Positions 16,769-31,027 of a stretch of DNA of 32,044 bases are shown here, in pieces. Location: positions 1-32,044 of the forward strand of contig QCKS01000016.1 of the NCBI GenBank assembly GCA_003215175.1, written 5' to 3'. The notes beneath the pieces were generated by a model. The model had not been told where the DNA came from, made no database searches, and saw nothing but the letters and a program-made list of their open reading frames with translations. How positions within the stretch are numbered: position 1 is the first letter of the stretch; the number at the start of each line of letters is the position of its first letter. The position numbers were made by a program, and so were the translations under genes. The stretch comes from Acidimicrobiales bacterium AG-410-I20. GTDB taxonomy: Bacteria > Actinomycetota > Acidimicrobiia > Acidimicrobiales > MedAcidi-G1.

Positions 16769-16794
16769 GAAACCCTGACATTAATCAGGGTTTC
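16769..16794 (-). terminator. Rho-independent terminator after the helicase/cold-shock gene
   Basis: A perfect 10-pair stem, GAAACCCTGA with TCAGGGTTTC, and a 6-base loop lies 23 bases beyond the helicase stop. Read on the minus strand it is followed by a T-rich tail (TTTATTGA after the stem's own TTTC), as expected for an intrinsic terminator. The plus-strand side has no T tract. Confidence 0.75.
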
Positions 16795-16817: not shown

Positions 16818-17018
16818 TCAGACTTTACGAACCTCGAGGGCTTCTGGGCCCTTGCGTCCTTCGCCAACTTCAAATTCTACTTCTTGTCCTTCGTCCAAAC
16901 TTTTATAGCCGGAACCATCAATATTTGAATAATGAACAAAGACGTCTTCGCCTTCTTCAACGGAAATGAATCCGTATCCTTTTTCAGAATTAAAAAACTT
17001 TACTGTGCCACGTGGCAT
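16818..17018 (-). other. Cold-shock domain segment with possible internal start (CspA-like, 66 aa)
   Basis: The last 66 codons of the helicase gene encode a complete, ordinary-length cold-shock protein beginning [17 protein letters not shown]. Its first codon is ATG, as in free CspA proteins. The bases before it (AAAGAAAG, about 9-16 upstream) are only a weak ribosome-binding site. Whether this is expressed as a domain only or also as a separate protein cannot be decided from sequence. Confidence 0.55.
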
Positions 17019-18479
17019 GGTATTCACTTTCTTTGATTTATTAACCGAGCCGTGGTTGGCACGATGAGCAAAGTCTACGCGAGAAGTAGGCAATAACCGT
17101 TCATCCTCATACGCAGAATTTTTTTGGAGGTGGGCGCGGCGAGCTTTACGGTTAGGTCCATTGGGTCCCACTGCAGCTAGATGCCTGTCTTTTTGTCTCG
17201 GTTTTTTCTTGTTCTGTTTTTTTCGATTTTGAGTTTTTTTAGTCTCCTGAAAGTGAGCAGATTTCTTTTGTTTTTTTGGAGGATTATCAGAAGTAGAAGT
17301 GTTGTTCTTTGGTTTATTTTTTTTGTTCTCGGGTAAGGATTTTTGAATAGGGGGAAGATAGTCCTTCAGCCAATGTGGGGTAGGCGAGGAAATTTCTTCC
17401 TGTAGGTCGATTTTTTGTTGCATTCTTTTTGCTTCTTTTATTTGGTTTGGTAAAAGCAAAGAAATTACAATTCCGTTTCTTCCAGCTCTAGCTGTTCGTC
17501 CAGATCGATGAATGTAGGCTTTGTGATCCTCAGGAGGGTCAAAGTGCATTACAGCAACAACATCATCTACATGTATTCCTCTAGCTGCAACATCTGTTGC
17601 AATCAGAACTTGCACTTTATTCTTTGTGAAATCGTTGAGCGCTCGAGATCTTTGGTTTTGACTGCGACCACCGTGGATAGCGGCTGCTTTGATTCCTGAT
17701 TTTGACATTTGTTTTGTAAGACGATCAACTCCATGTCGGGTTCTACAGAAGACGATAGCTGGCCAAGCAGAGTTAAGAATTTCAGCTGCTATTTCAAGGC
17801 GATTGCTTTTATCTACTTTCCAAAAGAAGTGATGGGCTGCAGTTATGTCAGGGGTTTCGTTACCTACCGTATGAGTGACTGGATTATTTAGGTGTTGTTT
17901 AATTAGTTGTGCAACATCTCCATCTAAAGTCGCAGAGAATAAAACGGTTTGACGCTCTTTGCTGGTTTGGTGGAGTAAACGATTAACAGAGGGCATGAAT
18001 CCCATGTCTGCCATACGGTCAGCCTCGTCGAGTACGACTTTTTCCACCGAGGAGAGATTTACCGCTTTTTGTTGAATTAGATCTTCAAGTCTCCCCGGAC
18101 AAGCTACGAGTATGTCTACTCCCTTCTTTAGGGTGTGTAGTTGGGCGCCATATCCAACACCGCCGTAAACAACTCCAACGCGAACGTCGCGTGAGAGGGA
18201 ACGCAATTCTGTATAAATTTGCTCTGCAAGTTCACGAGTTGGAGATAAAACTAAGGCGTGAGGATATTTGGATTGTGAGCGTTTAGAAGAAACGATCAGC
18301 GGAATACCAAATGCCAGAGTTTTCCCTGATCCAGTAGGAGCGCGACCGCAAACGTCTTTTCCGGCGAGTAAGTCACTGATCGTTGCTGATTGAATCTCAA
18401 AAGGTTTATGGATACCCCTTTGTTCCAAGTCGTTACAAATAGACGCGGGAACACCTATTTCTGAAAAAGTTAAAGTCAT
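16818..18479 (-). CDS. DEAD-box RNA helicase fused to a C-terminal cold-shock domain
   Basis: A 553-residue ATP-dependent RNA helicase with a complete motif set: Q motif (PFEIQSATI), motif I APTGSGKT (47-54), Ia PTRELA, II DEAD (151-154), III SAT (182-184), [33 protein letters not shown] (324-334). Residues 380-487 form a Lys/Asn/Gln-rich disordered tail, typical of RNA-annealing helicases. Residues 488-553 are a full CspA-type cold-shock domain with RNP1 KGYGFI and RNP2 VFVHY, in the same frame with no stop. An in-frame ATG at the domain boundary (17018 on the minus strand) could also yield free CspA. The role is inferred as unwinding of structured mRNA in the cold. Start ATG has AAAGGA upstream; a long structured leader precedes it. 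Confidence 0.92.
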
Positions 18480-30931: not shown

Positions 30932-31027
30932 AGAGATTTCTCTTCAGATGGTTTCTATTCTTTAAGGTATTTCTTTCGGTTAAGAAACTATCTCAGTGGT
31001 GTACGAGATGCCAATAGGATTGTTGTT

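Follow-up and report, generated by a model that had tools for sequence, protein, structure and literature searches.

The 32,044-nucleotide stretch of DNA analysed here (the window) forms a single contig in a 1.53-Mb genome from a genus of uncultured Acidimicrobiales. On its minus strand, a DEAD-box RNA helicase, a basic linker and a cold-shock domain (CSD) are read in one frame, and the same frame encloses a csp gene preceded by elements resembling a leader of its own (Table 1). The helicase part has both helicase domains and motifs I, II (DEAD), III (SAT) and VI, with HRSGRTAR read in its sequence; all three domains, including the CSD at residues 490–552 (Pfam), score far above their cut-offs. 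The fused helicase reached the NCBIfam equivalog cut-off of none of the named subfamilies CshA, RhlE, SrmB, DbpA and CsdA (the best scores were 333 bits against a cut-off of 646 for CshA, 302 against 743 for RhlE and 277 against 890 for CsdA), and no DbpA-type RNA-binding domain was found in the protein with Pfam. The internal ATG (17018–17016, minus strand) encodes Met488 of the fused protein, at the edge of the CSD. The 66-residue protein read from this codon is of the CspA type: PF00313 covers its positions 2–65 with 89 bits, and both RNA-binding motifs, KGYGFI and VFVHYS, are present. The reading frame, the Pfam domains and the position of the ATG thus bear out the original prediction of a helicase, a linker and a complete CSD in a single frame with a Met at the domain edge.

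Table 1. Features of the helicase–csp locus, with positions in the window.
Feature	Position	Strand	Remarks
Fused ORF, 553 aa: DEAD-box helicase, basic linker and cold-shock domain	16818–18479	−	No stop inside; same architecture in five other genomes of the genus
DEAD domain, aa 28–190	17910–18398	−	Pfam PF00270, 163 bits
Helicase_C domain, aa 232–333	17481–17786	−	Pfam PF00271, 102 bits
10-residue motif, aa 443–452	17124–17153	−	Marks the C-terminal end of the helicase where it is unfused (g6, several outgroups)
Possible −35-like element CGGTT	17095–17099	−	Weakly conserved; non-coding leaders reach at most about 1 bit per position
Whole embedded csp leader	17020–17079	−	Match of covariance model R1, for which only non-coding leaders were used
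−10-like box CGTAGACT (TANNNT)	17072–17079	−	Invariant in the six fused genomes; aligned with CGTAGRCT/CGTACRCT in non-coding csp leaders
Leader hairpin AUCGUGCC-AACCAC-GGCUCGGU	17044–17065	−	Within the coding linker; encodes HRANHGSV
Shine-Dalgarno-like AAAG element AAAGAAAG	17027–17034	−	8 nt upstream of the internal ATG
Nested csp gene for a CspA-type protein of 66 aa, from ATG 17018–17016	16818–17018	−	Separate orthologous gene in g6
Intrinsic terminator 3′ of csp, 11-bp stem and T tail	16769–16794	−	The two putative transcripts would both end here

A search of 100 relatives for this architecture, which the original prediction had called for, revealed full-length fusions in five further genomes of the genus (G001, G002, G004, G005 and G006), so that six of its eight genomes carry one. 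The five proteins are 68–80% identical to that of the window over essentially all 553 residues and are encoded on different contigs; the best named relative, an Acidimicrobiales bacterium (L032), shows 79% identity. The ATG of the junction Met is identical in all six fused genomes, i.e. the internal start at the domain edge is conserved. Given that the assembly of the window's genome consists of 66 contigs and is 83% complete, two genes might have been joined by an assembly or sequencing error. This is exceedingly improbable, as the same fusion is found on separate contigs in six different genomes; its presence over the full query length in the five relatives rules out a local assembly error at the junction. 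In each of the six fused genomes, three of which are 94–96% complete, the CSD within the fusion was the only CSD found. In the other two genomes of the genus, G003 and G007 (85% and 72% complete, respectively), we found neither an orthologue of the fused helicase nor any CSD; they carry only a paralogous helicase.

We compared the locus with those of relatives in which the two genes are separate. In the sister genus g6 (so called because it is the closest in csp linkage and in the similarity of the leader), the same orthologues stand in the same order with the same csp leader, but the helicase is ended by a stop codon shortly after a 10-residue end motif, and the csp gene begins 109–132 nt further on, in the same frame as the helicase at five of six loci. 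Several outgroup helicases also have the end motif, followed by a stop after a few to about 10 codons. The fused genus (g1) retains this motif without the stop, and loss of the stop codon is therefore the simplest route to the fusion. In the helicase tree the fused genus forms one clade (99/96), as does g6 (98/96). The tree gave no resolved g1–g6 order, and, with the two left as a polytomy, the polarity of the change rests on the end motif common to g6 and the outgroups.

Other arrangements are found in the family as well. In many genomes of genus g4, csp precedes the same helicase by about 0.4 to 2.6 kb (for example, at G037:C122 and G027:C11); within the family the two genes are thus linked in either order. 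In g2 and g3, csp is on another contig than the helicase. One helicase, on a contig filed under a Dehalococcoidia (Chloroflexota) genome (L036, CALGTL010000104.1), groups inside the Acidimicrobiales set, possibly through mis-binning or transfer.

The expectation that helicases and Csp proteins are normally encoded by separate genes was correct for most relatives, but not for all, since other DEAD-box–CSD fusions exist at L060 (2680–4332), L062 (3785–5866), L180 (genome G066) and L181 (genome G093). These have the same domain order in one frame, and probably originated independently. Unlike the fusion described here, they have a divergent CSD (49–63 bits, where the CSDs of the genus score 124–132 bits), lack a Met at the edge of this domain and show no match to the csp leader, and therefore give no sign of a nested gene.

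The csp genes of the family, near a helicase or not, share a leader that consists of a −10-like CGTAGRCT or CGTACRCT box (variant GTTAGCCT in part of g3), a hairpin, an AAAG element and the ATG (examples are L175, L161, L142 and L154). The hairpin would lie at the 5′ end of the csp mRNA. In the embedded copy, the hairpin stem is formed by 17065–17058 paired with 17051–17044. Across 22 non-coding leaders, five of the seven pairs of the hairpin changed on both sides; the covariation score was 0.474, compared with 0.251±0.031 for shuffled controls (0 of 500) and at most 0.145 for slid controls. RNAalifold predicted the same stem unguided.

With a covariance model built from the non-coding leaders, the window's whole genome gave one strong match, the embedded leader (17079–17020, 49.1 bits, E=1.9e-8), the next match scoring 19 bits. 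The other five fused loci were matched at 26.6–47.8 bits. When 61 genomes were scanned, the model matched once in each of 29, always directly before csp and including the six embedded sites; it gave no match in the 24 genomes of other families of the order that were searched. As the leader sequences share ancestry, the score of the model alone is no proof of selection. A secondary match in the window (30962–31005, minus strand; 15 bits, E=0.09) is probably due to chance. At the Rfam gathering score only a tRNA was detected in the window, and the csp leader matched no Rfam family. A scan with the sigma-70 consensus found no promoter, because the −35 element is poor.

We analysed the constraint on the embedded leader at synonymous sites. 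In the six fused genomes, codons were identical at 13 of the 17 invariant residues in the range 461–487; the corresponding counts were 20 of 230 for the helicase (Fisher p=6.6e-10) and 20 of 58 for the CSD (p=0.0045). The range 461–487 was picked after seeing the data; if the count is restricted to the stretch between the −10 box and the ATG, it becomes 12 of 15. The two subclades of the fused genus differ at 47–62% of nucleotides in codons 453–467 versus 8–13% in codons 468–487; it is therefore the nucleotide sequence of the leader itself that is constrained. Shared ancestry could account for part of the retention of the leader, but the strongly diverged neighbouring sites argue against it. 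Over codons 453–487 no stop was regained (2.2 were expected, P=0.11), and both length differences between the subclades are whole codons. These two comparisons provide a modest indication of selection on the fusion itself.

We suggest that the locus is a gene within a gene, formed by loss of the stop codon between two neighbouring genes, in which the helicase start would probably give the fusion, and the promoter and leader retained by csp most of the free CspA; judging from the sequence comparisons, we put the probability of this reading at roughly 0.7. In the ancestor, a DEAD-box helicase gene would have ended about 40 codons before a csp gene equipped with its own promoter and hairpin leader, and the helicase frame would now pass through both of these into csp. 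Translation from the helicase start would yield the 553-residue helicase–linker–CSD protein. The −10-like box would drive a short transcript, starting close to the leader hairpin, from which the 66-residue CspA would be translated from ATG 17018. Both the long and the short transcripts would stop at the terminator downstream of csp, and some free CspA may in addition come from internal initiation on the long mRNA. We infer that the −10-like box is a working promoter and that both the fusion and free CspA are made. A tethered CSD would add a grip on single-stranded RNA to the helicase, and free CspA would act as a general RNA chaperone; the tether may help the helicase to hold or remodel RNA. 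We also lean, though only slightly, towards a broader reading, according to which the upstream gene has swallowed an entire unit of expression, from promoter and structured 5′ leader to start codon and coding region, which has kept its own expression, the regulatory DNA doubling as the linker between helicase and chaperone and being under double selection across the genus.

Conservation of the csp −10-like box, leader hairpin and start at synonymous sites supports the proposal, already part of the original prediction, that one locus supplies both fused and free CspA. The route envisaged there, internal initiation on a single mRNA, is probably not the main one: the conserved element begins with a −10-like box, which points to a separate short transcript. 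Free CspA could be made solely by internal translation initiation at ATG 17018 on one long mRNA, with no internal promoter, and the ATG and the AAAG-rich site 8 nt upstream of it are indeed conserved in the six genomes, where the predicted anti-Shine-Dalgarno duplexes have energies of −5.2 to −7.9 kcal/mol. However, the conservation runs further upstream, through the hairpin to the −10-like box, neither of which internal initiation needs, and both elements are also found in front of csp genes that stand alone. The duplex of AAAGAAAG with the 16S tail (−6.5 kcal/mol) is unexceptional, being only among the best 12% of the 138 internal ATGs, which makes a strong Shine-Dalgarno sequence a weak explanation. 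On these grounds, we consider it quite improbable that internal initiation is the sole source of free CspA.

It is also possible to view the CSD-tailed helicase as a neutral by-product of the lost stop, with harmless read-through into a csp gene that alone matters and has its own promoter. This is unlikely. Residues 453–467 are poorly conserved, the DNA element would account for the conserved part of the linker, and the frame-maintenance test is weak; yet the frame has stayed open in six genomes at 68–80% identity with length changes in whole codons only. Moreover, helicase–CSD fusions arose elsewhere without a nested gene, and a tether can therefore be useful. The converse possibility, that only the fusion is made and that the Met and the leader are relics of the ancestral csp gene, would agree with stop loss as a simple route, as a relic Met would fall exactly at the domain edge. 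We regard it as very improbable: relics would drift, yet the silent sites of the leader are frozen and those of the helicase are not, on which grounds we reject the Met as a mere relic. In addition, no CSD other than the fused one was found in any of these genomes.

We compared the proposed arrangement with known systems in which one gene yields a large protein and its C-terminal part. In the E. coli Rpn genes (RpnL/RpnS), dRNA-seq revealed that every rpn gene has a transcription start inside it, and an internal promoter is marked in a figure of that study (PMC10327210). As predicted here for csp, an internal start in the same frame yields the C-terminal domain as a protein apart from the full-length one (PMC10327210). 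The Rpn proteins are different ones, with a toxin–antitoxin function, whereas in our case a gene that used to stand alone was captured through the loss of a stop; its hairpin leader is family-wide, and its separate state can still be seen in relatives. In the Cas8/Cas11 case, one ORF is reported to yield a large protein and its C-terminal domain through internal in-frame translation (PMC11899642); the proteins are unrelated to those described here, and there is no captured promoter or hairpin leader. Within the portion of the open literature that we covered, we found no report of a helicase–CSD fusion with a nested csp gene, or of the csp leader. What appears to be new is that a gene once separate has been captured in its entirety, with a promoter-like box and a structured leader that double as a protein linker, while the separate state is kept in relatives.

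When two genes fuse, the downstream one is usually expected to lose its independent expression. The comparative evidence suggests that here csp has retained its promoter, RNA leader and start even as they turned into protein-coding sequence. Sister species still have the two genes as separate ones, a single stop codon away from fusion, which makes the steps of this process testable. The family-wide csp leader hairpin is described here as an element outside the present Rfam families. For the organisms themselves, our results suggest that the one cold-shock protein found in each of these genomes is supplied in two forms, free and tethered to an RNA helicase.
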